Source of the DNA: Melastoma dodecandrum
Taxonomy: Eukaryota > Streptophyta > Magnoliopsida > Myrtales > Melastomataceae
Length of the DNA stretch: 64,000 bases
Assembly: GCA_029817715.1 (NCBI GenBank)
Contig: JARUPY010000290.1
Coordinates: forward strand, 1,426,001-1,490,000
Reading direction: 5' to 3'
The position numbers were made by a program, and so were the translations under genes. Position 1 is the stretch's first letter. Each line of letters opens with the position of its first letter. The notes below the pieces were generated by a model. It was given only the letters and a program-made list of their open reading frames with translations. It was not told the origin of the DNA and made no database searches. Below, piece after piece: positions 5,000 to 62,109 of the stretch.

Positions 5000-5581
5000 G
5001 AAGCACTATTTTGTAAGCGCGAGTTATTTATAGGCAACCGACCCCACTCTATCCAATATCTTATATGGACTATAATATAACGGAGATAATTTCTGGTTTT
5101 CCCTTTATTGACATGCGATTGACGTGCTGGTAATCTTAGGCCTATTTTTGACAATGCTTGTAAAGGACCATTGAGGCCTATAGCTAAGGTAAACATACCA
5201 AGCCTGCACCCGTAGTGTACATGGACTATGTAGCAAAAGAAGTCTACAGAGACGGGGTAATAACCTTGTAATCAAGGGAAATTTACAAGCCTGCGCCTCC
5301 AAGAGACACAAAGTCTACAGGCTTACGTCTGCAAAGGATACGAAGTCTACAGGCCTACGCCTGCAAAAGACACGTGTCAAAAGAAGACGGTTCCACAGTC
5401 CCGAGATAAATGGGACTTGTTACCCACGCTTACATCAACACACGTCTTAAAAGACAACCAATTAAACCCGAAGTCAGAAGAATTTACGACCCACAATCGA
5501 ACGAGTGGAAGTCAGTTAGCTCCGAGATTCTTGGGGAGAATCGAGTCCAGAAAATCTCGAGAAGGTCGTAACAAGACCGGG

Positions 5582-5589
5582 TATAAAAG
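5582..5589 (+). promoter_or_regulatory. LTR TATA box (TATAAAAG), left copy
   Basis: The motif GGGTATAAAAGG lies in the middle of the LTR and recurs at the matching place in the right LTR, as expected for the U3 promoter. Confidence 0.6.
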
Positions 5590-5714
5590 GAAGGAGATCT
5601 CTCTTAGAGAAAATCACGAACAAATCAGCCAACAAAAGCTTATCTTGCTCGTCACCCCTTAGTTGTTAGATTGTTAGGATTCCCCGACCTGAGAGAAACC
5701 CTTAAGGTTTCATT

Positions 5715-5905
5715 GGCCTTCACTTCCTCCGTCAGAGTGAGCAACCGTAGCTCGGGCAACAAATTCCCGCCTTCACTTCCACCGTCAGAGTGAGCAACCG
5801 TAGCTCGGGCAACAAATTCCCGCCTTTACTTCCACTACCAGAGTGAGCAACCGTAGCTCTGGTAATAGTCCCCCGCCTTCGACTCCAACGCCAGGACGAG
5901 CCACC
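5715..5905 (+). repeat. LTR minisatellite of about 53-bp units
   Basis: Three to four tandem units built around CCGTCAGAGTGAGCAACCGT each end in a GGCAACAAATTCCCGCC-like segment. The same array occurs in the right LTR (about 8935-9140), and a related one occurs in the LTRs of the element at 54246-57639. Confidence 0.8.
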
Positions 5906-6270
5906 GTAGTCTCGGCACCCCAAATCGGACACAGGGCCAATCGTTCCAACTGGATGGGGAGATAAGCTATCTGCCCAAGACATAGAGGAGGTTCTCCAGG
6001 AAGTCAACTCGGGGGAAAACCCTGCAGTGACTGGCAAGGCGAACGATGAAGGAGTAGAGAAAGATCAGCAAAATAGTGCCACGGAGTTGGAGCCCGATAG
6101 ACTCCTAAAGGAAGGGGTTTATGGACCAGAATGAAAAGGTAACCGAAGCAGTCGCCGATGTCCTTCAACGGCTTCAAGTCTACCAAGGAAATCGCTGCTG
6201 CAGATAACATGTCTCTTAGTTTTCAATAAATTCAGAAGCGCTTAGAGCGTTTAATGCTTGTAATAAGCCC

Positions 6271-8311: not shown

Positions 8312-9711
8312 TGTTGACATACGATTGACGTGCTGGTAATCTTAGGCCAATCTTGGGCTTATTTTTGACAAAGCTTGTAAAGGACCATTGAGGCCTATAG
8401 CTAAGGTAAACATACCAAGCCTGCACCCGCAATCTACATGGACTATGTAGCAAAAGAAGTCTACAGAGACGGGGTAATAACCTTGTAATCAAGGGAAATT
8501 TACAAGCCTGCGCCTCCAAGAGACACAAAGTCTACAGGCTTGCGTCTGCAAAGGATAGGAAGTCTACAGGTCTGCGCCTGCAAAAGACACGTGTCAAAAG
8601 AAGACGGTTCCACAGTCCCGAGATAAATGGGACTTGTTACCCACGCTTACATCAACACACGTCTTAAAAGACAACCAATTAAACCCGAAGTCAGAAGAAT
8701 TTACGACCCACAATCGAACGAGTGGAAGTCAGTTAGCTCCGAGATTCTTGGAGAGAATCGAGTCCAGAAAGTCTCCAGAAGGTCGTAACAAGACCGGGTA
8801 TAAAAGGGAGGAGATCTCCCTTAGAGAAAATCACGAACAAATCAGCCAACAGAAGCTTATCTTGCTCGTTACCCCTTAGTTGTTAGTTTGTTAGGATTCC
8901 CCGACCTGAGAGAAACCCTTAAGGTTTCATTGGCCTTCACTTCCACCGTCAGAGTGACCAACCATAGCTAGGGCAACAAATCCCCGCCTTCACTTCCACC
9001 GTCAGAGTGAGCAACCGTAGCTCGGGCAACAAATTCCCGCCTTTACTTCCACCACCAGAGTGAGCAATCGTATCTCTGGTAACAGTCCCCCGCCTTCGAC
9101 TCCAACACCAGGACAAGCCACCGTAGTCCCGGCACATCCAGTAGGAGAGACGGACTAGACTAATCCCAATCACGCTCCAAATGCTTAAAATCAACTACCA
9201 GAGACATGGAAACCACGATGATCCAAGAAACCTATGCCCAACAGGGAAGTATGACGTAATCTTACCATGATAGCAAGTTCCAGTTATTTCCCCTACTTCC
9301 ACCACCAGCATCGCCACCGCCTCCGCCTCCAAACTTCCCATCGCCAGAGCCCACTTCGACGCCTCCGCCAGGGTCAACCACCGCAGCTTTGGTGTCCACG
9401 TCCGCCTCAGCACCCGACCACATCCAGTATATCAAATCCAGCAGCTAAGTCCTGCTGCCCGGGGGCACAAGTCTACAGCGCTCTGCCATCAAGTCTACGA
9501 CAACGTCCCAAGTTTACTGAGCACTGTAGCTAGTATACAATCTTACCACCGTCTTTATTTTTACTTTTATGGCTGTAAGATTTCTTTACTTCATGTAAAA
9601 ACTGTTTGCATTTAATCAATCTTTTCAGTTACTTATTGGCGACCACATCTACAAATCCATGTGAGTCTTATTGCCAAATATTTTCGGTGTGATCCGTTTC
9701 CTACGCGAACA
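8312..9711 (+). repeat. Right LTR of the Tat-like element, full length
   Basis: The LTR starts TGTTGACATACG after a polypurine tract and ends ACGCGAACA, followed by the CCCTT duplication. It includes TATAAAAG at 8799-8806 and the minisatellite at about 8935-9140. Confidence 0.87.
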
Positions 9712-13119: not shown

Positions 13120-13131
13120 GCTCTGATACCA
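13120..13131 (-). other. Primer-binding site, tRNA-Met type
   Basis: The minus strand reads TGGTATCAGAGC, the complement of the 3' end of initiator tRNA-Met. It lies two bases inside the LTR end, as expected for minus-strand priming of the gypsy element. Confidence 0.85.
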
Positions 13132-35252: not shown

Positions 35253-35907
35253 CAAATGACACCGAAACTTGTGACTCAGAATTTCTGTTTGCTATACAGT
35301 TTCTAACTGGCTGCGTTTATGAGAAGCCGACTTGTTGGCCAAGACAATCAAACTTACCGAGGACAAGGGTGATTCGGGGCATTTGCAAAATGTTGCGTGG
35401 TCCCGGGAAAGAGGAGGCTGCACCAGCTGGCAAATATATATATATATATTTACAATCATTACATTCTCCCCCGTTAAAAAAATGGAACTTTCCTTCTTTC
35501 CCATTTACGGTGATGCAGGTGGGACATTCATTCCTGTTAATGTGCGCGAGAGAATGAATTATTATTATTTTATTTTATTTGTTTACCCACGCGTGAGGGG
35601 TGTGATCAGGTGAAGGGAGCGTTCTCCCTCCCCTTTTGTTTTGTTTATTTTAGATGAAATGGCATATCACGAATTAGGTCCCTAGATTTTGCCATGCTTT
35701 TCAGTTTCATTTGGACTTAGATGAAATATTCAGAAATCATAGATTGGTCCGGAAATTGTAGGGCTTTCTTCGAATTTGTCTAAAAACAATAAAAGAACTT
35801 AAGAATTGTAATTTTGATCCTTACTTTCCAAAGTGGTTTTCGACTTCGTCTGAAACCAAGACAAAGCTAAAAATTTTAAATGTTTAAAGAAAATAATGAA
35901 ATTATTA
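35253..35907. other. Spacer left of the virus-bearing element
   Basis: A TA-dinucleotide run lies near 35432-35451. No gene is recognised. Confidence 0.4.
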
Positions 35908-35916
35908 AAAGAAAAA
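35908..35916. repeat. Target-site duplication, left copy (AAAGAAAAA)
   Basis: This is an identical nonamer to 44500-44508, directly abutting the left inverted repeat. Confidence 0.7.
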
Positions 35917-36135
35917 GGCTTAATTATCCAATATATTCTCAACTTTACTCCTTTTTTCCGATTTATCCTGGAGTTTAAACTGTATCTCCAGATAACCCGT
36001 ATTCTCGACTTGTTTCAAAATTATCCCTCTTTATCTGAGCTCCGGAGATTTCCTCAGACAATTAGGAAATTAATCCCTCTTAAGCGAGCTCTGATATCAA
36101 TTCTATAAAAAAAGACTGAACTTAAGAAGATTTTC
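35917..36135. repeat. Left terminal inverted repeat
   Basis: About 110 bp align to the right repeat with roughly two thirds identity by eye. The inner part contains an extra, internally duplicated segment (ATCCCTCTTTATCTGAGCTC and ATCCCTCTTAAGCGAGCTC). Similarity to the right arm resumes at AAGATTTTCT, just before the stop of the 96-aa ORF. Confidence 0.7.
36088..36099 (-). other. Candidate tRNA-Met primer site of the viral genome
   Basis: The minus strand reads TGATATCAGAGC, matching 11 of 12 bases of the caulimovirid initiator-tRNA site. In a circular viral genome it would fall between the 96-aa ORF and the polyprotein start. It also lies in a duplicated piece of the inverted repeat, so the match may be fortuitous. 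Confidence 0.35.
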
Positions 36136-36139
36136 TAAT

Positions 36140-36430
36140 TTATTTTTGTCGTCGACGTTCTGTCAACATCGAATATTCGTTTGAATATTTCGAACTTGCC
36201 GTAAACCGCAAATTAGATTTGCTTTCAAGGAAAAACTCCTCAAATTCACTCTGCAATAGAGTCAGTTCTTCTAATTTCTTAGAATAACTATCAACAAGTT
36301 CAGACAGCTGTTGGATTTGCGCTGAGATACTTGCCAGTCGATCTACTACCGTATTTAGAAGTCCAGTAGCAGAATCCTTGCCCACCCCGTGATCCAGATG
36401 TAGAAGTTCGGGATTTGGACAATCAGTCAT
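36140..36430 (-). CDS. Viral small ORF, coiled coil (96 aa), possible virion-associated protein
   Basis: The 96-residue product has a heptad-like middle (ASISAQIQQLSELVDSYSKK and following) and a basic end (LTERRRQK). Coiled coil plus basic tail is the general plan of caulimovirid virion-associated proteins, but no sequence motif proves it. It lies downstream of the viral TATA box and, on a circular genome, would precede the polyprotein. The frame is open throughout. Confidence 0.4.
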   Translation of the reverse strand: MTDCPNPELLHLDHGVGKDSATGLLNTVVDRLASISAQIQQLSELVDSYSKKLEELTLLQSEFEEFFLESKSNLRFTASSKYSNEYSMLTERRRQK

Positions 36431-36684
36431 AAGACTCGTGCTTTAGCAACTGTCGTGCCTTTGCACCAACCTTCAAGATCTTATTAGATCGCGAAGATTA
36501 TCATAAACTACACAGCGGAAAATTTATCATACCTTAATCCAGTGGGTTGCTCAGATGGTTCACCAAGCTTCCGCAGCAACAGAGATCCAAGAGTAACACA
36601 ATTCTCAAGCTAGAGAATTCAGCGAACTGATTCGCAAACCGGAGAGGCTCTTCTGTATCGTTCCAATGCCCTTACACTGAGGGT

Positions 36685-36692
36685 CTTATATA
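36685..36692 (-). promoter_or_regulatory. Viral promoter TATA box (TATATAAG)
   Basis: The minus strand reads GTCTATATAAGACC in the large intergenic region between the 117-aa ORF and the 96-aa ORF. Caulimovirid pregenomic promoters carry this kind of TATATAAG motif at this relative place. Transcription would begin near 36660 and leave a leader of a few hundred bases. Confidence 0.6.
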
Positions 36693-37031
36693 GACACTCC
36701 TCATCCAAGGTTTCAGCCCAAGGCTATACTCCCTACAAGGTTCATGATCTTTCGATCTGACCTTCCGTTAGTTTTAACCAATGTTGATTAATTCTAACCA
36801 CCTTACTCTTGGTTCCTTAAGGTATTCGGAGAGCGATTCCGAGATTTTCTTACTCAGAGTTTTTGAGAGAGAATTTCTCTATTTGATTCGCCCCCCCCCT
36901 TAATGAGGTAGAAGGCTTGTGAATATATACACAAAGGAGCTGGTGCCTATGCGCTGTTTGCCAGCTCAAAAATAAAAGGAATCTAAACTGTTGCAAAAGT
37001 TAGTGGGGTCCTAATGACCGACAAAAATGTC

Positions 37032-37385
37032 CTAGTCTAACTTTATACAGTCGTCTTCTCCCGTCTGCATTGGCGTGCTATCTTGGGAGACTCTTTTTTC
37101 TGAGAGTCCTGGTTGGTCTTGATCTGCTTCAAGAATCTGTCGTGATATTTGTTGGGCTCTCTCATCATGCTCGATTTGCTGATTCAAGGTTTTGTCGGTG
37201 AAATCAGCAATCTTGCTCCAAACCTCGAAGGTGTCGGTTCGGAGATGCAGCTCAGAGTTTTCTCGCCTCCAGAAGCTATCCAGAAGGTCGAGCATTCTCT
37301 GCCATCCTCGGTCTCCTGCTTGCTCATCTATAAAGCTCAAATTTGACCGAAGAATCGTGACGGTGATCATACCATCACAGAGCAC
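37032..37385 (-). CDS. Viral ORF3, unknown function (117 aa)
   Basis: This open frame starts 19 nt before the end of the 624-aa ORF, an overlap typical of compact pararetroviral genomes. The product is acidic with an amphipathic helical middle (GWQRMLDLLDSFWRRENSEL) and a polar tail. I recognise no domain. It precedes the large intergenic region with the viral promoter. Confidence 0.5.
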   Translation of the reverse strand: MLCDGMITVTILRSNLSFIDEQAGDRGWQRMLDLLDSFWRRENSELHLRTDTFEVWSKIADFTDKTLNQQIEHDERAQQISRQILEADQDQPGLSEKRVSQDSTPMQTGEDDCIKLD

Positions 37386-39241
37386 GTAGTATTCGTCCTT
37401 CTTTCTAACACATGCTCTAACACGTCCTTAAGGAACTCAACTTTTATGGCTTTTCGGACAGTCTTGTCCTTGTAGTATTTCCGCCATAAACCTCTCTGAT
37501 CGAGGTCCTGTTTATGAGGTTCCGTCATACGTCTACTCTCACATGGATGGATGTCCCATACTTGCAGATTTTGAAGTATCACCTTCCCATACTGCGGATG
37601 GTCTTCTTCCTCCATCATTGTGCTAGTAATCAACGCCGTGGCATACTTTGGTCCGTAGCCTAGGCATCCGAGTATATACCTTACCAACGTAGGCAGTGGT
37701 TCCATACATACTGGTTCTGATCTGTCGATCTCCAGTATGTCCACAAACCCAGCATACACATAAGGCGCTGCTACTCCCACCCTATCTGAGTGAATTCTCA
37801 GAGACGGCCACTTCCCCGATATCCAGTGTAGATACGGTTGAAGCACAGTGTTTTCCTCAAGCGAGGATTCACTCATATCTACTGTTACCCTTGGGACGTC
37901 ATATTCTCTAACTTCCCTCGGTATTATAGACATTGTTGTGGAGAATATCTGCTGCCTTTCCTTCTCAAATCGAGACAGCTCCTCCTCACCTGAAGTCATA
38001 ACCGATAGTTTAAACTCCAGATCTTTGATGTACTCAACGGTCTTTCTTGCGAAAAACTCAATCTGGCGCTTTTCATTATGCTTGATGCCAGCCATGAGTC
38101 CTCCACAGACCACTGCCGCATCCCAACTTAGGGATTCGTCCTCAAACGAGTCTTCATCAAAAAACCAGGACCCTTCTAGATCCTCTTGGGTTTTTCCAAC
38201 ATGGCCTTTGCCACCGTGATTCTTATCACCATGAGAACTCTCACCAGACTCCTTGACTGAGTCTTTTTCAGGAATTGTTTCCTCAAGGCTTTCTTTCTTC
38301 TCTAGATTGCCTTCCAATGCTGCGTAAGCACTTCCAAAGTCGAAGTACTGCTCACACTCCATTGCAGCCGCTTCCTCTGGTTCTCCCCTAGGTTCAGGGT
38401 CCACCACTTGAATTGGCTCGCCTATTATGGCCTTAAACTTAGCCTCTTCCTCAGCATACTGTGTTTCCATATTCTCTTTCTGTTCCTCCTTGCTTTGTAA
38501 TAAAGCCTTGTAGGATTTCACAGCTTGATTGATGGAAATTTTCTGCTCTTTGGCTAAGTGGTTTCGGCAGTAATTGAACTGCTCCATGGTCAACGGAGAC
38601 CACCAAGGTTCTTCAACCTTACCGTCCTTCTTAGGACCATTCTTTGCAGAATCATCCCCTGTTGGACCAGAAGAACCAAGCCTCTTGGCTTTCCTCTTCT
38701 TCCTGGCTTTCTCCTGCGACTCAGCTTTCGCCTTGTCTTTTAGGTCTGCCATCTTCGCATTTCCTCTGGAGATTTCCTCCTTTGGATCTGTCTTCCCTTC
38801 CTGGGAAGCTTTCGCTTTCCCCTTAGAATTAGCTCTTGCCTTTTCTTTAGGTTCAGCCATCTCCTTCTGGGATTCTTTCGCTTTTCCCTTAGATCTGGCC
38901 TTAACCTCCTTGGGATTAGCTATCTCCTCCTGGAGATCTGATTTCGCCTCACTCTTGGAGTCAGCTTTTGCTTTCTCCTTAAGTTCAGCCTTCCCCTTCT
39001 GGGAATTTGCAGTTTTCAGCTTCTTAGGACATTCGAATGATCGATGACCCTTTTGCTTACACTGCCAGCAGAGAATTTCTGCTTTCGTTCCAGAAACGGA
39101 ACCAGCATCACTATGCTCACTTTCTCCTTTGAGTTTAGGACATACCTTTCGGGAGTGTCCCTCCTTCTTGCATCCCCAGCATATCTTTCTCTTTGCAGCA
39201 GGATCCATCTGCAGAGTTTTTAGAAAGAGAGGTGTTTGCAA
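37367..39241 (-). CDS. Viral ORF2: double zinc-knuckle, Lys-rich protein (624 aa)
   Basis: This 624-codon open frame overlaps the end of the polyprotein by 107 nt in another frame (a second Met, at 39208, is also possible). Two CCHC knuckles stand near the N terminus: CWGCKKEGHSRKVC (C21, C24, H29, C34) and CWQCKQKGHRSFEC (C58, C61, H66, C71). Residues about 75-190 are imperfect Lys/Glu/Ala repeats around KGKAK and PKE. The rest is acidic, followed by about 200 ordered-looking residues (ISGKWPSLRIHSDRVGVAAP, YILGCLGYGPKYATALITS). Position after the polymerase corresponds to the transactivator/inclusion-body ORF of several genera, but no clear similarity to it is visible. Function unknown, perhaps nucleic-acid binding. 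Confidence 0.65.
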   Translation of the reverse strand: MQTPLFLKTLQMDPAAKRKICWGCKKEGHSRKVCPKLKGESEHSDAGSVSGTKAEILCWQCKQKGHRSFECPKKLKTANSQKGKAELKEKAKADSKSEAKSDLQEEIANPKEVKARSKGKAKESQKEMAEPKEKARANSKGKAKASQEGKTDPKEEISRGNAKMADLKDKAKAESQEKARKKRKAKRLGSSGPTGDDSAKNGPKKDGKVEEPWWSPLTMEQFNYCRNHLAKEQKISINQAVKSYKALLQSKEEQKENMETQYAEEEAKFKAIIGEPIQVVDPEPRGEPEEAAAMECEQYFDFGSAYAALEGNLEKKESLEETIPEKDSVKESGESSHGDKNHGGKGHVGKTQEDLEGSWFFDEDSFEDESLSWDAAVVCGGLMAGIKHNEKRQIEFFARKTVEYIKDLEFKLSVMTSGEEELSRFEKERQQIFSTTMSIIPREVREYDVPRVTVDMSESSLEENTVLQPYLHWISGKWPSLRIHSDRVGVAAPYVYAGFVDILEIDRSEPVCMEPLPTLVRYILGCLGYGPKYATALITSTMMEEEDHPQYGKVILQNLQVWDIHPCESRRMTEPHKQDLDQRGLWRKYYKDKTVRKAIKVEFLKDVLEHVLERRTNTTCSVMV

Positions 39242-42200
39242 GTTCTCTAGAGAGAGAGTCGGCTATTATGTTGTGGTCGGACTTAATGTATTCGACCTCG
39301 TATTTATAATAGCTCAACAGTTCCTGCAACCTCAAGAGTCTAGTTTGCCTAGCCTCCTTAAGGTTCAGACTCATAAACCTTTTTACATAGGTCGAGTCAG
39401 AGCGCACTAAAAATGCTTTCGGTGCCAAAAAGATGTAAAAAGCCTTTATTCCATTTTTTAAGGCTAATACTTCCTTTTCATGTATCGGGTATCGTAGTTC
39501 GTACCCCTTGAAGCTTCCCGACCAGTATTTACACACCGGTTCTGGTTTTCGTCCTCTAATTTTGAGAACTGCTCCCCAATGATTTTCAGAAGCATCAACT
39601 TCCAAGACTAGCTCATCACTATCAGATGGTAAAGCTAATTGTGGCAAATTTTTCACCTTAGCTTTTATCCTTCTGATGGACTGAGTGTCTTCATCTTCCC
39701 ACATCCAAGGATTAGTCGAAGAGGTTTTCTTCGAAATCCTACTCAGATCTCTGGAAAGATCTTTCACAAACTTTCTTGCATAGTTAGCGCATCCACAAAA
39801 TCTTTGGACTTGCTTTCTATCTTCAAGTCTGTCGGGAAAATTTATTATTTTCTCAGCAATATGATTTTGCAGTTTAATTTTTCCCTGCTCAATCTCCATG
39901 CCTAGAAAATTAACTGATTCCCTAAACCACTCTATCTTTTTCTCTGATAGAATCATGCCCTCTTGTCGAAAGACATCAGTCACCTTATCTAGGTGTCTCA
40001 TGTGTTCATCTTCAGTCTGACTGTAGATTAGCACATCGTCAATATAGACCGCACAAAATCTTCGGACCTGCTTGAAAGCATTATCCATTTTGCGTTGAAA
40101 TACGCCTGGAGCATTCTTCAGACCGAACGGCATAACTAACCATTCAAACATTCCTTGCGGAGCATTGAAGGCAGTTAGAGGAACCGACTCTTCTTCCATC
40201 TTGACTTGCCAGTATCCACTTTTCAAGTCAAATTTAGAAAAGTATTTTGGTTGACTCAAACTAATCCTATCAATAAGATCTCCCGCAGTTGGAATCTTAT
40301 AGCCATCGTCTTTTGTAGCTTTGTTAAGCTGACGATAATCTATAACCATTCGTGCTTTACCTCGCACCTGCTCGGCATGGTTTATAACCATAAAGGCCGG
40401 ACTAGAATGTGGACTATAACTGTCCCTAATCAAGCCTTTTCCCAGCAACTCAGGAATCTGTTTGTCAAACTCCTCAACCATTTCAGCCGTATACGTAATG
40501 TTTCTGGCTCGTATAATGGTTCCGGGATCTTTCAACTCTAATCTAGCCTTGAGGCCATTTCGAGTCCATAACTTTAATGGATCTTCACTAAAGTTATCGG
40601 CTAGTTTTACTAGGAACTTATCCCATTTTGTTCCTGTTAACTTAACAGCCATACACACTTCCTGTTTTGGATTTGTAAACAGGTCGTCATTCCTGCTACA
40701 ACTACTGGTATTCGTTGGAGAAAACAGGGTTTGTTCCCATGGTTCGTTCTCATCCAACCGTATATCACCACGTTGAGCTCGCACTCTGAAAGCTCTTTCA
40801 CATGGAGTCGTACCACAGTATTCTGTCCGTTTTACCGGATAAAAGCCAAATTTTAACCGAAGTCGAGGCTCTTGTAGAATACTTATTTTTACCCCACCTA
40901 TGGAAACATCATTTTCATTTTGCACAAAAGGAAGGTTTTCCTTCTGTCCCTTCAAAAAGGCGTTACCAATAATGATGTCGGCCTCTAGTAAAGGATGTGC
41001 AAGAATCTCTTTAATGATGAACTTTTGTCCACCAATAAAGACAGGCACGTTGTTTGCCTTGTGACCAACCATTGTGGCCATACCGTCGACGTTAACCATG
41101 TGGATGGGTTTCTGCAGTGGTTCCCACCACTCATCTGGTAGAGCATTGAGTCTAGCACAAGTTGTACTACACCCAGTGTCTATCAAGGTGTCTAGAGAAT
41201 ACTCATAGTATCCAGGAAATTTGAAAGTTAGAGCCACATATGTGCTCATGTCTTCTTTCCTAATACTAAACCCAATATTCTCAGGTACCTTCTGGGATGG
41301 TTCTATCATCCTCCAGATATCGTCTATTGGAATAGACCTTTGCTCGGCTATTTGTTCAATAACCTTACAAACTTCAGGAATCTTGGATAAAGAGTATTCC
41401 GTATTGGTTACCCTTAACATCCGTATAGACTCCTCTCTCGTCTGATCTACAGGGTCTTCATAGACTGGTAGTGATACCTGTCTATACCCTACGATTCTAC
41501 CCGTATGTTGAGACGGGGCTCGTGAATCAACAGATCTTCGAGACATCTCTTCTATTAGTGGAGGTGCGCTTGCAACCTCTGGTCGAGAGACTATTACCTC
41601 TTCTCCCACATCACTAGCTCTTGAAGAGACTTCAGAGGGCGCTCTATTAAGCGGCTCTCTCAGGATTGGCCTCCTCACAGGCAAATATCTGTCAGCTCTT
41701 TCGCTAAGCATAGGCAAATGCCTATCAGCTCTAAAACTGTCCCTAGACGGTTCTCCCAACATTAAAGTAATCTCGTTACCTCTTTGTCGGATATTGGCCG
41801 CACTAATCGGCCTAGAGCTACTACCGGGTTCAGTCATAACCCAGTTTCTCGGCCAGGTTAACTCTAATGGGTTTACCTCTTGCCTGTGAAACTGTTGGTA
41901 GTTATTATGACCTTCTTCGAACAACTCAGTAAGTCTTGAGATGTTCCTCACACCAGGACTAGTTGTATTTACCAGTCGGTAAATTACTCTAGTGTGATAC
42001 GCCAAAAACTTGGCCTGGGAATTCATCCTATCCATATTCATTGATTTGATCCTTAAGGTCAATGAATTTCCCAAACAGCGATCGTTCAGGGCCATCATGA
42101 AATTTGGGTGGACCTGGAACCATACAGGGCCATGTGCTAAGTTGGCCTGTATTCCTGATATCAGCTGATCTCTAAACTCTCGCCATCGTTTATCGATTAC

Positions 42201-44360
42201 TGCTGCTACCACAGGACTATCCGCAGGTAAATGAAATAATGGGATTAGTCCTACTTGGATCAACCCGATGTGTATATAATTATATACACCTCTCGCACGT
42301 TGCATGGTTTCTCTTATGCGTTGTACGTTGAGTAAGGGTATGTCCAACGTCTCGAGTTCAGTGCTCGTGACCTGTGCCGTTGCTTCTGTTTGTGAGATGT
42401 CAATTATCGACCGAAAACTGAATCTCGATACATTATAGACTTCCCTCACATTTACATTAGGCAACCTCCATTCCAGCACCGACTGGGATGGATCTTCGTA
42501 CTGGTGAGATTCCTCCAGTACCTGATTCGTTGTTTCCAAGGGAACCAACTCATCACCATCTCCTTCCCTTTCTGCTCGCATCATGAATAGATGTTCGGTC
42601 CAGAGATCAGAATCATCCTCTGAGTCTGTATCATAGTTTGACACAACCTCATAGATCGATTCTACTTCCGAGTCTAAGTCGGAAATCTCTTGCTCATCTA
42701 TTGGTTCATAAGCAAGGATTTCTTCCTCATGACTCCTGTCATCCAGGAAGACCATCCGGAGTCTTTCTCTCCTTTGGTTCTTCTTCGGACAACTATCCGC
42801 CTTGTGGTCTTTTGAACCACAAAACCAGCAGCAATTACAACTGCTCAAAGGTTTCCCTTTTGGACATTTAGGCTCTCTGCCATGCTTTCTCTTGAAAGCA
42901 TCGATCCTATCTTTATCCTTTAGGTTATCCCTTCTCCTTACAAACCTCTTTGGCTTGTAATCAGGACCTCCTTTCTGTTTTCTTTGGAGATCTCTCTTGG
43001 GCCAAACTTTCCTTTTATTGTACCCAACGAACTTCCTTGTTTTACGAGGAAAGTTCCTTCTCTTCAGAGAATCACCGGTCGTACTACGAGTATCGCATCC
43101 GTATCTTCCCGGCACATACTCTATTTGAGAACAACAGCTCTTATTCAGGTAAGGTAGCTTCTTAGCTGCCTCTTTTACCTGTAGCTCAGTACATGCTTTA
43201 CGCATTGCGTACTTCACCGCCTGAATTTTTCCTCCGAGTCCAGAAACAATCTTTTCCTCACTCAGAAGTAATTCATAGGCCTTCTGCGCAACTTCCGGCC
43301 AAGGTTCTGGAAGTTTTGCAAAAAAGGTTCCCAATATGAACTGTTGAGATACTACGTCCAGATTGTAGTAATACTTCTGGAATTCACACACGTAGCTATC
43401 AAACCAGCACATATCACAGATCTGTAGTTTAACCAGAGCGGTCAAAGACTGCTCTTTCTCCACGGTCTCAGTGGATAACGAGAAACCACAGAACTCTCGT
43501 TTCAGGGCATCAGCGATTATTGCTAATACTCCGTCAACCGTCAGTGCTTGATCTATCTTTTCCTTAATGTCTGTGTGCGCCACTAAGGTTTTCCAATATT
43601 TCTGCGCTGTACCCATGAGGGCTGCCACACATAATTCATAGACTGCTCCAGGAGGTACTCCTCCTGCAGACGCTGTCATCCGAATTAATGATAACCACTC
43701 ATCTATCTTTTCAGATACATGCTTTTCACAATCAATGTCCAGAAAAGCACCAGGGGTAATTATTGGCTTTAAAACATTATCCCTTGGGACAAACTCTTGT
43801 TTAGTCCGATGTGGATAATCAGGCCTATATATCTCCCTCTTCGCAGTTACCAGTTCATTGAACGTTCTGTTGTCTAAATGAACTGGGGTATCTTCTGCCA
43901 GGCCTAAGGCTTTCCTTAGGTCTTTTGCCAACTCCCCACTTTGGGAGTTCAAGTTTGCACTTCGCTTTTGCGAGTCTGAAATATAAGGAGCTACTGACTC
44001 CTTGTACATTTCATCCACACTTTTGCCTTGGTTTGGTCTGGAATTTCTCCCTCCCAAATTCAATCTTTCGACTGGTTTTCCTGTAGTACTTTCCAGTCCA
44101 GAGGTCGCCTCGGCTTCAGGTCCTTTTAAACCTCTTTCCTTTTCCAGAGCGTCTAGCATGTTATTAACATAAGCGCCTACTTCCTTTGCCATCTGGTTTC
44201 GGCTTTCTAGACCTTCTGTACTCCCTTGGATGGCTAGCTGAGTTAGAACATCGTTTATACTCTTGCTCATCCCAAAAGGAGACAGTCTGGATTCTGGAAC
44301 GAACTCCAGCCTTGATGGAGTCCCAGAAGGATTTCCCGAAGCTTTTCCTTCTCCAGCCAT
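39135..44360 (-). CDS. Endogenous caulimovirid polyprotein, uninterrupted (1741 aa)
   Basis: This is one open frame of 1741 codons. Domains in order: a capsid-like region (about 190-500) ending in a Lys/Arg-rich stretch and one CCHC knuckle, CWFCGSKDHKADSC (about 510-523). A 30K-type movement protein follows (about 620-860; YIHIGLIQVGLIPLF, NLAHGPVWFQVHPNFMMAL). Next are a retropepsin (LDTLIDTGCSTTC, about 1060), a reverse transcriptase (ARMVIDYRQLNKATKDDGYK about 1343; VYIDDVLIYS about 1440) and RNase H1 (LVLEVDASENHWGAVL about 1587; then DSTYVKRFM). There is no integrase. Movement protein plus RT without integrase identifies Caulimoviridae rather than an LTR element. The start lies directly inside the right inverted repeat. 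No internal stop is present, so the copy is young or under constraint. Confidence 0.93.
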   Translation of the reverse strand: MAGEGKASGNPSGTPSRLEFVPESRLSPFGMSKSINDVLTQLAIQGSTEGLESRNQMAKEVGAYVNNMLDALEKERGLKGPEAEATSGLESTTGKPVERLNLGGRNSRPNQGKSVDEMYKESVAPYISDSQKRSANLNSQSGELAKDLRKALGLAEDTPVHLDNRTFNELVTAKREIYRPDYPHRTKQEFVPRDNVLKPIITPGAFLDIDCEKHVSEKIDEWLSLIRMTASAGGVPPGAVYELCVAALMGTAQKYWKTLVAHTDIKEKIDQALTVDGVLAIIADALKREFCGFSLSTETVEKEQSLTALVKLQICDMCWFDSYVCEFQKYYYNLDVVSQQFILGTFFAKLPEPWPEVAQKAYELLLSEEKIVSGLGGKIQAVKYAMRKACTELQVKEAAKKLPYLNKSCCSQIEYVPGRYGCDTRSTTGDSLKRRNFPRKTRKFVGYNKRKVWPKRDLQRKQKGGPDYKPKRFVRRRDNLKDKDRIDAFKRKHGREPKCPKGKPLSSCNCCWFCGSKDHKADSCPKKNQRRERLRMVFLDDRSHEEEILAYEPIDEQEISDLDSEVESIYEVVSNYDTDSEDDSDLWTEHLFMMRAEREGDGDELVPLETTNQVLEESHQYEDPSQSVLEWRLPNVNVREVYNVSRFSFRSIIDISQTEATAQVTSTELETLDIPLLNVQRIRETMQRARGVYNYIHIGLIQVGLIPLFHLPADSPVVAAVIDKRWREFRDQLISGIQANLAHGPVWFQVHPNFMMALNDRCLGNSLTLRIKSMNMDRMNSQAKFLAYHTRVIYRLVNTTSPGVRNISRLTELFEEGHNNYQQFHRQEVNPLELTWPRNWVMTEPGSSSRPISAANIRQRGNEITLMLGEPSRDSFRADRHLPMLSERADRYLPVRRPILREPLNRAPSEVSSRASDVGEEVIVSRPEVASAPPLIEEMSRRSVDSRAPSQHTGRIVGYRQVSLPVYEDPVDQTREESIRMLRVTNTEYSLSKIPEVCKVIEQIAEQRSIPIDDIWRMIEPSQKVPENIGFSIRKEDMSTYVALTFKFPGYYEYSLDTLIDTGCSTTCARLNALPDEWWEPLQKPIHMVNVDGMATMVGHKANNVPVFIGGQKFIIKEILAHPLLEADIIIGNAFLKGQKENLPFVQNENDVSIGGVKISILQEPRLRLKFGFYPVKRTEYCGTTPCERAFRVRAQRGDIRLDENEPWEQTLFSPTNTSSCSRNDDLFTNPKQEVCMAVKLTGTKWDKFLVKLADNFSEDPLKLWTRNGLKARLELKDPGTIIRARNITYTAEMVEEFDKQIPELLGKGLIRDSYSPHSSPAFMVINHAEQVRGKARMVIDYRQLNKATKDDGYKIPTAGDLIDRISLSQPKYFSKFDLKSGYWQVKMEEESVPLTAFNAPQGMFEWLVMPFGLKNAPGVFQRKMDNAFKQVRRFCAVYIDDVLIYSQTEDEHMRHLDKVTDVFRQEGMILSEKKIEWFRESVNFLGMEIEQGKIKLQNHIAEKIINFPDRLEDRKQVQRFCGCANYARKFVKDLSRDLSRISKKTSSTNPWMWEDEDTQSIRRIKAKVKNLPQLALPSDSDELVLEVDASENHWGAVLKIRGRKPEPVCKYWSGSFKGYELRYPIHEKEVLALKNGIKAFYIFLAPKAFLVRSDSTYVKRFMSLNLKEARQTRLLRLQELLSYYKYEVEYIKSDHNIIADSLSRELANTSLSKNSADGSCCKEKDMLGMQEGGTLPKGMS

Positions 44361-44499
44361 TCAGAAAATCTTAATTTAGGAGCTTTGATGGATATTTTCG
44401 AAAATGGATCAAAGTTCAGGATATAGGGAGATATTATCTAAACCTTAGGATAAATTGGAAAAAATTTTGTAACTTTGGGATATATTTGATAAAGTGCCC
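44361..44499. repeat. Right terminal inverted repeat
   Basis: On the minus strand it starts GGGCACTTTATCAAATATATC and runs 139 bp to the polyprotein ATG. It aligns with 35917 onward, with a gap of about 85 bp relative to the left arm. Confidence 0.7.
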
Positions 44500-44508
44500 A
44501 AAGAAAAA
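44500..44508. repeat. Target-site duplication, right copy (AAAGAAAAA)
   Basis: This is identical to 35908-35916 and directly abuts the right inverted repeat. Confidence 0.7.
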
Positions 44509-45099
44509 TCATTACTTGTTTGAAGTAAGTTACCCGGTCATGTTAAGTAATTAACTTCGTGATTCAAAATTGATCACCTAATCATTTTTCATAGGAATTA
44601 ATTGAATATCACTAATAATGTCCAACGATTTTTTATGAAACAGTAAGCATGTTCTATGATCTTTAAAATTTAAAGAGCATCACCAGTTAAAGTTAACATT
44701 AGCCTAATCGCATGTGATCAAAACTTGATTAATGTTGAGTATGCTGGGTTAAGGCCAATTTGGGGGGATCTACATTGATTTCAACACGCCGCCTTAACAT
44801 CGAGTTACTCTTCTCATCATTCCAAGTTGTACATGAAATTCTTCGAGCTTACTTGAGCTAAATCCTTTGGTAAAGATGTCGGTCGATTGGTCTTTTGTAC
44901 CGATATGTTGTAACACGATCTCTTTTGCAGTACCCTTTCTCTCAAAAAATGATTGTGGACTTCTACATGCTTGGTTCTAGCATGAAACTCTCATTGTCAG
45001 CTAGCTGGATAGCTGAATGGTTGTCGCATGATAGAGGTATTGCATGGTTAGCTTACCGATGAAGGTCTCCCATTAGTTGTTCTAGCCACATAGCTTTTT

Positions 45100-48000
45100 G
45101 TGTTGCAATTACAGTAGCTCTATACTCCGCTTCTGTCGTTGACAGTGATACCGTTGGTTGACGCTTTCTACATCACGTTACTGCTCCTCCTGCTAGATTA
45201 AAGACATATCTCATAGTTGACCTTCGAGTATTGCGGTCTTCGACATAATCAACATCACAGTATCCTGTAATTTTGCAATATCTTTCTCTTTTATGGTATA
45301 TTCCATTGTCCAATGCACCTTTAACATACTTTAGTATCCGTCGAACTGCATCGAGGTAGAGCTTCTTTGGTGATTGCATAAATTTGCTTACTAAAACAAC
45401 TGCATAAGAGGTGTCTGGTCTTGTATGTGTCAGGTAGATCAGACTACCAACCAACTGTCGGTATATTGTCGGCTCTTCAAGATCTTTTCCTTCGTGTGTG
45501 CTTAACTTGATTTTGAACTCAATAGGTGTTGATATCGGCTTGCACTCTATCTTCCCATATTTCTTTAATAGCTCCCCTGCATATTTTTCTTGGCACAGAA
45601 ACAAGCCTTATGGAACTCGATTAACTTCTAGTCCCAAGAAGTGTTTTAGTTCTTCGTGCTCCTTCATATTGAATTGCACATAGAGATTCTCCTGGATTTG
45701 TTTGATCTCATTTTTTCATCTCTTATGATGATGAGATCATCCACATACACAAGCACACGATGATTTTCTCTCCTTGGACTTTGAGAAATAGGCTTGAGTC
45801 GGCTATGGCAAGTGTATATCCATTCTGGAGTAGGAACTCTGCAATTTTGTCATATCATGCGCTTGGTGCTTGTTTCAGGCCATATAAAGCTTTCTTTAAT
45901 TTACAGGCATAGTACGAATGATCTTTATCTGCAAAGCCTTGTGTTTGCTCAATATAGATTGTTCTATCTAACTCCCCATGTAGCAATGCATTCTTCACGT
46001 CCAACTGACAAAGTTTCCAAGACTTACTTGCAGCTAGTGCGAGCATAACACGAACAGTTGTAATCTTCGAACTGGACTAAAAGTCTCGTCATAATCCGCA
46101 CCATACAACTGAGAGAATTCTCGAGCTACGAGTTGAGTCTTGTACCTCTCCACTGTTCTATCTGGAAGAGTTTTCACCTTATACACCCATTTGTAAGATA
46201 TGGGTATAATAACATCACTTGGTTTGGCTACCAAATCCCAAGTCTGATTTTCTTCCAATGCTCAGATCTCTTCACTCATTGCATCTCGCCACACTTTGTG
46301 CTTTGTTGCTTCTTCAAAATCGGTGGCTCTTGTGGATCAATGTCTTCAACAAGAACTGTATCTACATATCGTGTTGGTGGTCTTTGTTGTGTTGCAGATC
46401 TTCTTAACAATGTTGTATTATCTCCATCTTCTTCTATCGTATCTTGAGAAGATCGCAAATAGACTCCTGTTTGCCGTGGTCGATTACCTTCTTCATCGTT
46501 ATTTCTCATAACAGGAATTTCTTCCGTTGACTCCCTCCCCTTGGTTTTTGTTCTTATCTTCTACTTCCTTCAAAGGCGACCACCATGAAGTTGCCTCATC
46601 AAAGACAACATTACGAGATACCGTACACTTGTTAGTTATAGGATCACAACACCTCCATCCCTTTCTTTCCATGTCATTTCCGATGATGATGCACAAATTC
46701 GCCTTCTTGTCAAACTTGCTTGACAGGTGGTTAAGAATGAATACATAGGAGACCACCTAAAGACGCGGAAGTGTCTTACTAATGGCTTCATTTTCCATAG
46801 TACCTCGAACAACGTCTTTAAATTTAGGTGAGCTTGAGGCAGCTTGTTTGTAACTTGTACACGCGTCTTCATGCACTCTGCCCAGTATCTTCCTGGGTCA
46901 TTCCTTGTATGAAGCATACTTCTGCAAGATGTCATTCTGTTGTAGTGTGTGGGGAAAGGTCATCTGTCGTCTCATTTTGTTCTCCTTCAAGTATTCTACA
47001 AACCCCCTAGAGGTATATTCTCCCTCGTTTTCAGTACGTAGACACTTCACTTTCTTTTGCAAGTCATTATTTGCCTTGTTCTTATACTCTTTGAACTTCT
47101 ATAGAGTCTCTGACTTTACTTTCATAAAATATTCCCAGACATACCTGGAGTAGTCATCGATGAATGTCGCCATATATTTGCGGCCACCTACTGATGGGTG
47201 TTTCGCTGGTTCAAACACATCAGAATGTATCAGTTGTAGTGGTTCTTTGACCCTATAATTGGATTCCTCGTATGACAACTGGTGTGCTTTTCCATATTCG
47301 CAGTTACTACAGACATTGTTGACATTCACCTCCAACTATGGAAGGCCCTTCAGCATCTCCTTTCTCAGCATATCCTTCAACTTGTGGTTGCCAACGTACC
47401 CAAGCCTCTCATGCCAGAGATCTGTTGTTTCATTCATCTTCATCTTTTCTATGTATGCTGATTATGCAGACATCACATAGATGGAGTTTACCTTCCGTCC
47501 TTCCATGAACGACGTCCCAAAAAACTTCAACTCTACATACACCTTTACATCTTCAGGTCTAAACACCACGAAGTTATCGGGGGCAGTCAATTGAGCTATT
47601 GACAAAAGATTATTCTTTATACCAGGGACATGGTACACTCCTTGCTACTGCACTTTGTTGGAACTATGATCAGCAATTATGACAATCTTCCCAACGTGGG
47701 TAATGGGCAATCTGGATTTATTGGTAGTAAAGACAACTCATTGGCTTTTATATTCTGATAGCTACTGCAACTTTTCCTCATCACTAGTCATATGGTTGGA
47801 ACATCCCGAGTCAAATACCAGTTCTCTGTATACTCCACTCTTTTATTGAGAACTACTGCAAGAGCCTGGTCTTCTGACGGTTGCTCTTCTTCTAGCACGA
47901 CGAGAGACGTTTTAAGGTTCCACTCCTCTTCAGATTTGTCTTCATTGTGATTGGATGACGTGGCAACATTTTCTTCCATGTTCTTTCTCTTGGACCAACA

Positions 48001-48780
48001 GTCTCTCGAATAATGCCCATTCTTTCCACAGTTGAAGTATTCTGCATTTTTTCGTAGAGTTGACTTTTCTTGTCTCTTCCTCTCTTGTGGTCGGACATTC
48101 TTCTATTGCTCATGTCGACCATTCCTTCCACCTCGCAGAAATTTCTCTCACCATCTTTGACAAACCTTTTATAGTTTCTTCTTATATTACTATATAAGGC
48201 CTTTTCTTCATTTTTCAAAGTTACTGCTACCCCTTGTTTTGCTAGCGTTCCTCATTACCTAGTAAACTTTCTAAATCTTTTAGGGACAGCGGCGTGGGCC
48301 ATCTTTGCACCACCGCAATAAATCCCCTATTTCTCTGGTCTTAGTCCATGAATAATTATTTTCCTCATCCTATCATAGCTAATCCTTGATCTTGGGTCTA
48401 ATTTTGAAATCGCCCGAAAGATAGGATTTACTTTTGTGAAGAACTGATTAATTTCTAGTTCCCCTTGTCTAACTGCCAACAAATCATTCTCTAGAAATTG
48501 TAACCTCATATCGTTTTTCTTCGAGAACCTAGTTGTTAGTATATTTCCAGACATCTTTTGGCTTTGTGGCGTACCTTATATGCTCAAGCATTTCCTCTTT
48601 TATGGTGGTCTTTATCGCGAACATGGCCCTTCTTGCTTTTATTCGCCCTTTTCATAATGCGACAGCATCCTCCTCCGGTGGGGCCGTCTCACTTCCGCCA
48701 ATAATCTTCCAGAGATCTTGGCTCCATGCACGTCTTTCACGTGCTATAATTCTGGTTGTTTAATTTTTTCAGCATGCCAA
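45100..48780 (-). pseudogene. Copia gag-pol remnant
   Basis: Gag pieces (48780-48300) include SQDLWKIIGGSE and FLENDLLAVRQGELEINQFF. The zinc knuckle near 48020 reads YFNCGKNGHYSRDCW, with Tyr in place of the first Cys. The integrase keeps [16 protein letters not shown] (about 47170) and RSMLHTRNDPGRYWAECMK. RT has KWVYKVKTLPDRTVERYK and YGADYDETFSPV. RNase H has GYCDVDYVEDRNTRRSTMRY. Many stops and shifts lie between. Confidence 0.87.
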
Positions 48781-57641: not shown

Positions 57642-60600
57642 GTGGAAGACGCATGGAGTCTTATCTCCAGGGCCAAGATATCTGGGAGATTATTGGAGGA
57701 AGTGAGAAGACCCCACCGAAGGAGGATGCTGTTGCAGAAATGGCAGATAAAAGCAGGGAAGGCCATGTTCGCCATAAAGACTATCAGAGAGAATGAAATG
57801 CTTGAGCATATAAGGTACGCCACTACGTCAAAAGATGCATGGGATATATTAGCAACTTCGTTCTCGAAGAAAAACGATACGAGGCTACAGTTCCTAGAGA
57901 ATGACTTGCTGGCAGTTAGACAAGGAGAATTAGGAATTAATCAGTTCTTCACAAAATTAAAATCTATTTGTCGGAAAATATCGGAGTTAGACCCATGTTC
58001 AAGGATTTGTGATGATAGGATGAAGAGGATAATTATCCATGGGTTAAGGCCAGAATACAGAGGATTTATTGCGGCTGTTGAAGGGTGGCCCACGCCGCCG
58101 TCGTTGGAAGATTTGGAAAATCTGCCAGCTAATCAGGAGACGCTAGCAAAACAAATGGCGGGCGTAACCTTAAAAAATGAAGAAGAAGCCTTATATAGTA
58201 GTAAGGGAAGAATCTCTGTTAAAAATAAGAGATCTGAGGAGAGAAAATTTCCATAAGGCGGTAGAGATGGTCGATGAGATTATCAGCCCAATCGACGACA
58301 ACAATAGAAGATACTAGATAAGCCAACCCAACGGAAGAATGAAGAATGTTTCAATTGTGGAAAGAAGGGGCATTACGCTCGAGACTGTTGGTCGAAGAAG
58401 ACGGACGTGGAAGGAAATGTTGTCACGTCAAGCTGCCAAGACGAGGATAAATTTGGAGAAGAGTGAAACCTTGAAGCATCCCTCACCGTGCTGGAAGAAG
58501 AGCAACCATTGGAAGACCAGGCTCTTGTAGTAGTTCTCAATAAAGCATTAGACTACATAAAGATTTGGATATTTGACTCAGGATGCTCTAATCATATGAT
58601 TGGTGGCCATGAGAAGCTGCAAGAATTGTCAGAATATAAGGGCTAACAAGCCGTCGTCGTCGCCAACAACTTTGGAATGCCTATTGCCTACGTCGGGAAG
58701 ACTATCATAATGGCCGATGACAGCTCAAATAAGGTGCAGCTATATGGAGTCTACCATGTCCCGGGAATAAAGAAAAATATCTTGTCAGTAGCCTAACCAA
58801 GAGTCCCAGGCAATTTCGTGGTGTTCAGGCCTGATGTCAAGGTTTACCATGAGCTAAAGTTTTCAGGGAAATCGTTCATGGAGGGGTGGAAGGTTAACTA
58901 TATCTATGTAATGTCTATAGAATCGGCATACATAGATAGAGTGAAGAAAAACGAGACGACGGGCCTATGGCATGAGAGGTTTCAGCACTTGGCTATCACA
59001 AGAAGATTATGATGAACAAAGAGATGCTGAAAGGCCTTCCACAATTGGAAGTGAATGTTGACAGCATCTGTGCAGGCTGTTAGTATGGTAAAGCACACTA
59101 GTTACCGTACGAAGAGTACAAGTATAGGGCGGACGAAGCACTATAGTTGATACACTCTGATGTATTTGGGCCAGTAAAGCGCCCATCTGTAAGCGGCAGC
59201 AGATACATGGTGACATTCATTGATGACTACTCCAGGTATGTCTGGGTAGACTTCATAAAAGAGAAGTCAGAGGTCTTGTAGAAATTCAAAGAGTTCAAGA
59301 TCAAGGCGGAGAACGATCTGCAAACAAAGGTGAGGTCTCTACGCATCGACAATGTGGGAGAATATGCCTCCAGGGAATTTACAGAATATCTCAAGGAGTG
59401 CAAGACTAGAAGACAGTTGACATGCCTCTACACGTCACAACAGAATGGTGTCGCAGAGAGAAAGAACATGTATCTTGTAGAAGTATGCAGAAGCATGTTG
59501 CACGCCACAAATGTCCCTGGAAGATACTGGGCAGAGTGCATAAAGGCTGCTACAGATGTTGCAAATAGGCTACCGCAATCTCGCCTCAACCTCAAAACAT
59601 CTTTTGAGCTACTATGGAAGATGAAGCCCATAGTGTGCCACTTCCAAGTCTTCGGGTGTGTTTACTATGTGTTCATCCCTAGCCACTGGCGAAGAAAATT
59701 TGAAAAAAAGGTGACAAAGTGCATCTTTGTCGGATATTACATGGAAAGAAAGGGATGGTGATGTTTTGATCTTATAACTAACAAGTGTACGGTATCGCGC
59801 AACGTGATATTTGATGAGGCAACTTTCTAGTAGCCGCTTTCAAAGGAAGTAGAAGATAAAGACAAGAACCAGAGGGAGGAAGTACTATTAAAGCCAGTCA
59901 TTGAGGATACAACAGAAGAAACTTCTTTTGTGAGAAATAACGATGAAGAAGAAGATCAACCATGACAAATAGGAGTCTATCAACTATCTTATCAAGATAC
60001 GACTGAAGAAGATAGAGATAATACGACACCGTAAAGGAGATCCATAAGATAACGAAGACCACTAACATGATATATAGATGCAGCTCTTGCCGAGGACATT
60101 GATCCACAGGAGCCATCAAGTTATGAAGAAGCGTCACAACATAAGCAATGATGAGATGCAATGCTAGAAGAGATCCGAGTGTTAAAAGAAAATCAAACTT
60201 GGGATTTGGTACCCAAACCTGGTGAAGTTAGACCGATATCCTGCAAATGGGTGTATAAGGTGAAGACTCGCTCAGATGATTCAGTAGAAATATATAAGGC
60301 TCGTCTCGTTGTTCGAGGATTTTCACAGCAGTATGGCTTGGACTACGACGAGACATTCAGTTCGGTTGTAAAGATAACAATGTTAGAGCACTACTCTCCC
60401 AAACAGTAAGTAAGCCTTGAAAGCTTTGACAAATTTACATAAAGAATGCATTCCTATATGGAGAGCTTGATCGAGCTATCTACATGGAGCAACCACAAGA
60501 ATTTGAAGACAAGAAACATCCCAAATACATTTTCAAGCTGAGGAAAGCATTGTATGGGCTAAAGCAGGCTCAGAAGCTTGGTATGGCAAGATTGCATAAT

Positions 60601-61370
60601 TTCTACTAGAGAGTGGATATACTCTTATCGTAGCTGACTCAAGCCTCTTCGTCAAAGTCCGAGGAGAGAAGATTGCAGTAGTTCTTGTGTATGTGGATGA
60701 CTTGATCATCGCCAGAGACCACTTCATTGAGATCAATCATATCAAAGAAAATCTTTTCGTACAGTTTCTCATGAAGGAGCTTGGAGAATTGAAGCATTTT
60801 CTTGGGCTAGAATTTTATCAAGTTCCAAAAGATATGTTCCTATGCCAATAGAAATACGCAAAGGAGCTGTTGAAGAAATATAGAATGCTCAAGTGCAAGC
60901 CAATATCAATACCCATCGAGTTCAATGCCAAACTCACGAATTAAGGCAAGAATCTTGAAGATCCAACGATCGTCAGTTGGTGGGGAATTTAATTTAAGTT
61001 ACACATACAAGACCAGACATATCATTCGCTGTTAGACTAGGAAGCATATTTATGCAATCTCCAAGGAAGCCTCACCTCGAAGCAGTTTGTCAGATATTGA
61101 GGTACATCAATGGTACGTTGAATTATGGAATATTCTATAGAAGAGATGGAGATTACAAACTCTCTGGGTACTGTGATGCAGACTACGTTGGAGACCGCGA
61201 TACTCGAAGATCAACTATAGGGTATGCTTCCAGTATTACAGAGGGAGCAGTCTCCTGTTGTAGTAAGCGACAACCAACAGTTTCACTTTCAACCACATAA
61301 GCAAAGCATAGAGTTGTCGCCACCGCAACACAGGAAGCTACATGGCTAATGCAACTCATGTAAGATCTTC
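57642..61370 (+). pseudogene. Copia gag-pol of the second element
   Basis: Gag: DAWDILATSFSKKNDTRLQF, ICDDRMKRIIIHGLRPEYRG. The zinc knuckle CFNCGKKGHYARDC is intact near 58350. Protease: WIFDSGCSNHMIGG near 58565. Integrase: [29 protein letters not shown] and [67 protein letters not shown] near 60690. RNase H: GYCDADYVGDRDTRRSTIGY near 61170. Better preserved than the other copia copy, but stops (for example near 58645 and 58796) and frameshifts remain. Confidence 0.9.
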
Positions 61371-61636
61371 ACCAATAAGCAAACTATGCAGTTTCTTTGT
61401 AATGCGACAACAAGTCATCAATCCAGTTAGCCGAAAACCCAATATTTCATGCAAGAACTAAGCACATGGAGATCCATTATCATTTCCAGCGAGAAAAAGT
61501 GTTACAAGAAGATATCACGTTACAATATATCAGCACAAGAGATCAATCGGGGGACATCTTCACTAAAAGACTTAATGCGAGCAAACTAGAAGAGTTTCGT
61601 TCGCAACTTGGCATGACAAGAAGATGGAGTCGGTGT

Positions 61637-62109
61637 TGTGGGGGAATGATAAAGAACAACACCTACCCACTTCATGCCCTCTCGTTCTCCTTATATTTTG
61701 GTGGTAATTTCTATAAAACTCAAGGGGGCTTCCAAAGATATTTTTATTATGATATCGATAGATGTAATTAGTGGTGAAAAATATGAATACGTAGGCGGTA
61801 GGTAGAATTTTGTGGCTAGAATAGAAGAAAAGTAAGTAGGTAGAACAAATGGTTTATAATAAAGCTAGGTGTTGCATTTGTAACCCTATCCAAGTTGAAG
61901 GCATCCGTCTATAAATAGGGCGCCCTTCATTTGTAACAATCATCTCTTGTAGCAATAGATGTTCGGGGAAATTATTAGGTAGATAGTTTGCTCTTCACCT
62001 CTCTCCTCCAAATATTTCTATCGACAATTCCTCTTAAGTCAGGTGGCTAAAGCATTGGGAAATCGAGACGACCATCTTAACTTATTAGCTAGGAAGCCAC
62101 GAGGTCCTA
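61637..62109 (+). repeat. 3' LTR of the second copia element
   Basis: It matches the 5' LTR along its length and ends near GAGGTCCTA. The start is preceded by a G-rich purine tract. Confidence 0.75.

Follow-up and report, generated by a model that had tools for sequence, protein, structure and literature searches.

A caulimovirid-like genome with Mutator-like ends forms a multicopy insertion unit in Melastoma dodecandrum

Introduction

How pararetroviruses enter plant chromosomes without an integrase has been termed speculative in a 2023 review (PMC10377300). One of the two main hypotheses is that integration accompanies the repair of breaks at palindromic (TA)n sites, the other that long terminal repeat (LTR) retrotransposons participate, and the same review cites the suggestion that a transposon integrase is hijacked. 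A locus of Melastoma dodecandrum (Melastomataceae) raises this question in a particular form. In the stretch of 64,000 nucleotides analysed here and called the window (contig JARUPY010000290.1 of assembly GCA_029817715.1, positions 1,426,001 to 1,490,000, forward strand), an element at 35917-44499 consists of a caulimovirid-like genome flanked by terminal inverted repeats (TIRs) and a perfect 9-bp duplication. Did a virus land in a transposon, did a transposon pick up a virus, or does the virus itself make use of transposon ends? Here, we show that the TIRs and the virus form a single multicopy unit whose insertion is accompanied by a 9-bp duplication. We consider it likely that a caulimovirid lineage acquired a pair of Mutator-like ends between its primer-binding site and the start of its polyprotein, replicates as a circle and is integrated by the transposase of a host Mutator-like element (MULE). 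A published report of a caulimovirid between MULE ends was not found, judging by titles and the starts of abstracts, which is a weak test.

Ends of the element in the window

The nonamer AAAGAAAAA is present as an exact copy on both flanks of the element, and the two arms that follow inwards are identical at 73 of 113 positions in an ungapped alignment (Table 1). When all 6378 pairs of identical 9-mers in the window with a spacing of 0.5-15 kb were taken as the null, this pair ranked first (73; next 47; mean 28.5, standard deviation 4.9). A sequence-only reading of the window had claimed a perfect 9-bp duplication and imperfect TIRs; the former is exact and the latter align better than the background of the window. 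The target-site duplication of Mutator-like elements is 9 bp (range 8-11), and the arms have the length of the long TIRs of this group. A long direct repeat at the element ends, by which an LTR retrotransposon would be recognised, was found nowhere in 35800-44620, nor was a second copy of either arm found within the 64-kb window. Microhomology between the two virus ends, direct or inverted, was within the null and was dropped.

A multicopy family with fixed ends

The own-genome searches covered 372.9 Mb in 607 contigs, and the DNA searches scored the best 40 candidates each (out of 274 for the left arm and 241 for the right arm). Seven other loci align with the window from the TIR onwards (from 35914-35917 in six of them and from 35907 in the seventh), across the junction between TIR and virus and up to the end of the locus, with 88.5-89.8% identity. 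For matches 2-21 of the left-arm search, hereafter the 20 other copies, the far sides were fetched. An alignment of 21 copies revealed that all of them have the left TIR-virus junction in common, and the right arm is present in 20/20 other copies, ending at 44499. The 9-bp duplication is perfect in 17 of them, with a single mismatch in two others and two mismatches in the remaining one. Moreover, the duplications of the 20 copies all differ, and among 380 swapped pairs of left and right flanks none was perfect and two had one mismatch. The sequence-only reading had proposed that identical junctions with different 9-bp duplications at several loci would speak for transposition as a unit, and this is the pattern observed.

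The right-arm search yielded 39 ends besides that of the window. For 36 of them, a left end of the same orientation lies 8134-8763 bp away; two others pair at about 24 kb and one is unpaired among the matches listed. A 27-bp pattern of the left terminus with up to three mismatches occurs at 155 places, and the reversed control at none. Another 20 places have other termini; 19 of them match the virus wholly or partly, including L113, which does so only at the first 0.8 kb, and one (L122) matches the TIR only. L109, L110 and L112 are viral copies that have diverged; their left flanks are nearly identical and their interior is rearranged, with a stretch matching 43.1-43.8 kb in inverted order; the matches of L109 and L112 are identical and perhaps derive from duplicated contigs.

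A second type of terminus

Copies were also sampled with a 501-bp query from the reverse transcriptase (RT), which avoids choosing by TIR; the best 40 of 518 candidates were scored and the termini were matched by eye. The list of left termini with up to three mismatches is complete for contigs up to C272, on which there are 19 hits besides the window. A listed terminus lies 3.5-3.6 kb from 12 of these. The other seven were fetched: L133 and L135 have diverged termini of the window type, in L130 the homology continues to the limit of the fetched piece, within 36 bp of the terminus, and L129, L131, L132 and L134 have a terminus that is different from the window type. On later contigs, a listed terminus accompanies 6/20 hits.

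The left end of the second type starts with GAGCTTTGTACC and has a sharp edge with unrelated flanks in the four copies. In these copies, the homology to the window starts just past the primer site, at 36056 in three and at 36078 in one, and at the three right ends that were fetched the last homologous position is 44361, a single base ahead of the polyprotein ATG. At each of these three right ends, the left end recurs in inverted orientation (scores 48, 58 and 48; shuffle maxima 28, 32 and 31). Perfect 9-bp duplications, the hallmark length of Mutator-type insertion, are present in three of three copies tested (GTTCCCGAG, TACGACGAC and ATTTTGAAA), as in 17/20 copies of the window type. The RT of the second-type copies is 94-95% identical to that of the window, and the exchanged region lies between the primer site and the polyprotein ATG. 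Hence, the two types differ at both ends at once, with almost the same virus between them. On a linear molecule, this exchange would take two events, on a circle with joined ends one, which suggests that the replicating form may be circular. The two terminus types also suggest a modular association rather than a single accident.

The viral genome

The claim that a whole caulimovirid genome lies between the repeats was confirmed: the coat, 30K movement, protease, RT and RNase H domains, all with Pfam matches over the cut-off, follow each other in this order in the polyprotein (44360-39135, minus strand), and open reading frames (ORFs) 2 and 3 come next. No integrase domain or other integration enzyme was recognised in the ORFs of the element, which fits the Caulimoviridae, as do the five protein domains and the initiator tRNA-Met primer site. 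Members of this family have a circular encapsidated DNA genome of 7.1-9.8 kb. The unit length of the element, which is known here from chromosomal sequence alone, is 8.6 kb and within this range. A MURA-type transposase domain is also missing from the ORFs of the element, which is therefore a non-autonomous MULE at most. As the sequence-only reading had pointed out, the ORF ends are close to the repeats: the polyprotein ATG is located about 26 bp inward of the right arm and the 96-aa ORF terminates about 110 bp inward of the left arm. However, its statement that all ORFs are open has to be corrected, because ORF2 and ORF3 share one frame in 18/20 other copies and are thus one gene that is split by a frameshift in the window copy. 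With this frameshift and one mismatch in the primer site, the window copy is defective. An age estimate from intact ORFs had assumed that every ORF of the window is intact and was withdrawn.

Table 1 Features of the element and its flanks (positions in the window)
Feature	Position	Strand	Remark
9-bp target-site duplication, left	35908..35916	no strand
Left terminal inverted repeat, 113 bp	35917..36029	+	multicopy, sharp outer edge
Left inner TIR-like stretch	36030..36087	+	TIR sub-repeat, local score 28 vs shuffle maximum 26
Initiator tRNA-Met primer-binding site	36088..36099	-	11/12 in window copy
Small ORF, 96 aa	36140..36430	-
TATA-like site, presumed genome promoter	36685..36692	-	read by eye; putative
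ORF3	37032..37370	-	continuation of ORF2 in 18/20 other copies
ORF2, 613 aa, zinc knuckle	37367..39208	-	frameshift parts ORF2 from ORF3 in window copy
ORF1 polyprotein, 1741 aa	39135..44360	-
RNase H domains PF17919, PF17917	39306..39701	-
Reverse transcriptase domain PF00078	39891..40364	-
Aspartic protease domain PF02160	40902..41246	-
30K movement protein domain PF01107	41961..42365	-
Coat protein domain PF22909	43146..43460	-
Right terminal inverted repeat	44387..44499	-
9-bp target-site duplication, right	44500..44508	no strand

Among the 40 rows chosen for an RT tree, the element groups with two relatives (support 100/99), and a set of 19 rows (99/96) holds the element, Fragaria elements, Vaccinivirus, Dioscovirus and badnaviruses; the two Ty3 rows are placed apart from it. 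A scan of IMG/VR with an RT piece found six stretches that fitted a pattern, none of which is a relative. The endogenous caulimovirids on the Zendovirus/Vaccinivirus/badnavirus side resemble the element in domain content, primer site and genome size. However, their known integration has been ascribed to break repair or LTR retrotransposons (PMC10377300), whereas the element has TIRs and 9-bp duplications.

A part of ORF2 is 83% identical to a Melastoma candidum protein. In the comparison of P0123 with ORF2, 30/57 differences are conservative (0.357 expected without selection, p 0.007), a result that was superseded by the DNA comparisons below. The ORF2 structure predicted from two sequences had a mean pLDDT of 37 and was discarded. 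Degenerate direct repeats at 38702-39004 within ORF2 encode a lysine-rich segment. Folding of the leader RNA gave z values of -3.3 for a long and -1.3 for a short piece and was not used as support; a scan for bacterial-type promoters was uninformative.

Selection, conservation and recombination

The copies compared here were chosen by their left end, copies with frame-changing indels were excluded from the scoring of the ratio of nonsynonymous to synonymous changes (dN/dS), and stop codons were skipped. Over the 401 RT codons, 16/20 copies have neither a stop nor a frameshift, three have one stop and L063 is frameshifted. The RT dN/dS is 0.071 (mean dN 0.0152, mean dS 0.2149) over 190 mutually dependent pairs from which L063 was excluded. 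The values are 0.056 for the coat, 0.064 for the ORF1 N-terminus and 0.065 for the movement domain, with a mean dS of 0.15-0.29 across coat, movement and RT. For the small ORF (86 codons), ORF3 (seven other copies) and the N half of ORF2, dN/dS is 0.116, 0.120 and 0.211, respectively; in the C half of ORF2, a frame-changing indel sets every copy apart from the window. All 12 positions of the primer site are intact in 20/20 other copies, with p 0.18 in the adjacent 40-nt spacer. Far less variation is seen at the right terminus than at silent sites (p 0.013 in its outer 60 bp and 0.052 in its inner 59 bp versus 0.110 at RT third positions). For the left outer 60 bp, p is 0.020, which is not independent evidence because the copies were picked by the left arm.

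The distances between copies in RT, movement, ORF1 N-terminus and ORF2 segments correlate weakly (0.17-0.56 over 190 pairs). For instance, one pair shows no difference in the movement region but differs by 6.3% in RT, and conversely another differs by 0.6% in RT and 8.2% in movement. A recombination rate of 4 x 10^-5 per site and cycle is given for cauliflower mosaic virus (PMC8256270), and the figure quoted there is in line with mosaicism under reverse transcription. Thus, it could be shown that the proteins, the primer site and the right terminus are under constraint and that the copies are mosaic. Strong purifying selection on the viral genes and recombining copies indicate that the behaviour of the unit is that of a replicating virus equipped with transposon ends rather than that of captured cargo.

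Host Mutator-like elements

MULE transposase domains are abundant in the genome: 150 of 1241 candidates were scored, those listed are over the cut-off and many lie within open frames of about 700 codons. The non-viral element L122 (G000:C13:481988, minus strand) has a TIR homologous to the viral TIR, with 64/113 and 66/113 ungapped identities to the two viral arms (null mean 30, maximum 49). Two inverted copies of the L122 TIR are found at 0.6-0.9 kb.

Discussion

The sequence-only reading had left two possibilities. According to one of them, an exogenous virus integrated into the centre of a single pre-existing miniature inverted-repeat transposable element (MITE). Although the joined arms can indeed fold back (-30.6 vs a shuffle mean of -15.2), a single landing is excluded because the 20 other copies share ends and junctions and have locus-specific duplications, and the reading is refuted, with a practically negligible probability. 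An early variant, with the break in the virus at its primer site and a MITE around it, was also dropped, as the homology runs through the TIR-virus junction elsewhere. The other possibility was that a MULE has mobilised a viral genome. This holds insofar as TIRs and virus insert as a unit with 9-bp duplications, but not for the behaviour expected of captured cargo. If one viral genome had been captured once and spread by a transposase acting in trans with its genes idle, then fixed ends with 9-bp duplications, abundant MULE transposases and stops or frameshifts in some copies would be accounted for. By contrast, the low dN/dS of coat, movement and RT (0.056-0.071) at the observed dS, the complete primer site in all other copies, the mosaic segments and two terminus types on RTs of 94-95% identity are at odds with idle genes, and passive cargo is strongly disfavoured and unlikely.

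The inverted repeats might also be the hairpin of a viral leader involved in ribosome shunting, with the copies entering by host break repair. Caulimovirid leaders fold, and the repeats would occupy the leader of the circle. However, a hairpin accounts neither for fixed outer edges with 9-bp duplications nor for a different TIR pair that substitutes for it, again with 9-bp duplications, which makes this explanation very improbable. It is somewhat easier to imagine that the virus encodes its own unrecognised integration enzyme acting on these ends, for example ORF2, which has zinc knuckles and no assigned function; the failure to find an autonomous MULE with the same TIR among the best 40 candidates would fit as well. 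Against such an enzyme stand the 9-bp duplications and the long TIRs starting with GG and GAG, which are MULE-like, the homologous TIR of the non-viral L122 and the fact that one enzyme would have to accept two different ends, so that we give it a low probability.

Taken together, the ends, the duplications and the selection pattern point to a DNA transposase, and it is suggested that the virus enters chromosomes by borrowing transposon machinery. Several observations weigh against this interpretation. The terminus type of 14/39 RT-sampled hits is unassigned, the duplication is imperfect in 3/20 copies, and several of the duplications consist of low-complexity A/T sequence, one of them all T. 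An autonomous MULE with the TIRs of the element was not found in the best 40 DNA candidates per search, and neither the far end of L122 nor a recognisable duplication was found when they were looked for. The constraint on the left terminus is inflated by the selection of copies by their left arm, the mosaicism could partly be due to gene conversion between chromosomal copies, ORF2 itself could act in integration, and the circle with joined ends is deduced from chromosomal copies.

In the proposed life cycle, the virus would replicate by reverse transcription and its circular genome would bear the joined MULE ends. A host MULE transposase would act on these ends to turn the circle into a linear insertion flanked by a 9-bp duplication, and might also excise the inserted copy again. 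In the inserted copy, the presumed promoter and the primer site are at the left end and read outward, while the polyprotein is at the right end; such a copy would be split and silent for genome replication until excised. Joining the ends would restore the order of promoter, primer site, TIR pair and polyprotein. Only in a circle joined at its outer ends would the promoter reach the polyprotein, and this circle is therefore the probable replicating form. Extrachromosomal circular Mu occurs in maize. The circle, the action of a host transposase and excision are inferred steps, and a full integrate-and-excise cycle with an exchangeable cassette of MULE ends, a split silent provirus and release as a complete circle seems slightly favoured over its absence.

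Among known systems, Teratorn of medaka, a 180-kb herpesvirus-derived element of the piggyBac superfamily, is also a whole virus fused with a DNA transposon (PMC5601938). In a fusion of this type, the whole virus moves as a DNA transposon with a transposase gene of its own. The element described here inserts as a unit, with no transposase gene recognised in its ORFs, and in contrast to Teratorn it is an 8.6-kb reverse-transcribing plant virus with MULE-type ends of two types. Pack-MULEs resemble the element in that foreign sequence lies between MULE-like TIRs with 9-bp duplications. However, they carry a gene fragment without replication of its own, while the element carries a whole replicon under purifying selection, with mosaic copies. 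Mutator-like MITEs have TIRs and duplications of similar length, and the genome contains a homologous non-viral TIR (L122), but the element differs by its 8.6 kb and its viral genes. For the chimera of Banana streak virus and Ty3-Gypsy, a mobile element has been proposed for caulimovirid integration as well (PMC10377300); as presented in that review, it uses an LTR retrotransposon, whereas the element has DNA-transposon ends and belongs to a large family.

Other features of the window

Outside the element, inverted copies at 44796-48722 and 57672-61637 are 73% identical over about 4 kb, and the right copy has copia-type gag and retroviral SH3 domains. Direct repeats of about 0.8 kb (5108-5918 and 8314-9135) are 95% identical. 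A perfect match to a tRNA-Met primer site at 13120-13131 (minus strand) is perhaps that of an LTR retrotransposon, and a RING protein encoded in the window is 98% identical to its Melastoma candidum counterpart.

Conclusions

Entry by a DNA transposase would be a third route for pararetroviruses into plant chromosomes, besides break repair and LTR retrotransposons. The family described here makes the question of integration directly testable and would link the activity of MULEs to the spread of endogenous viruses.

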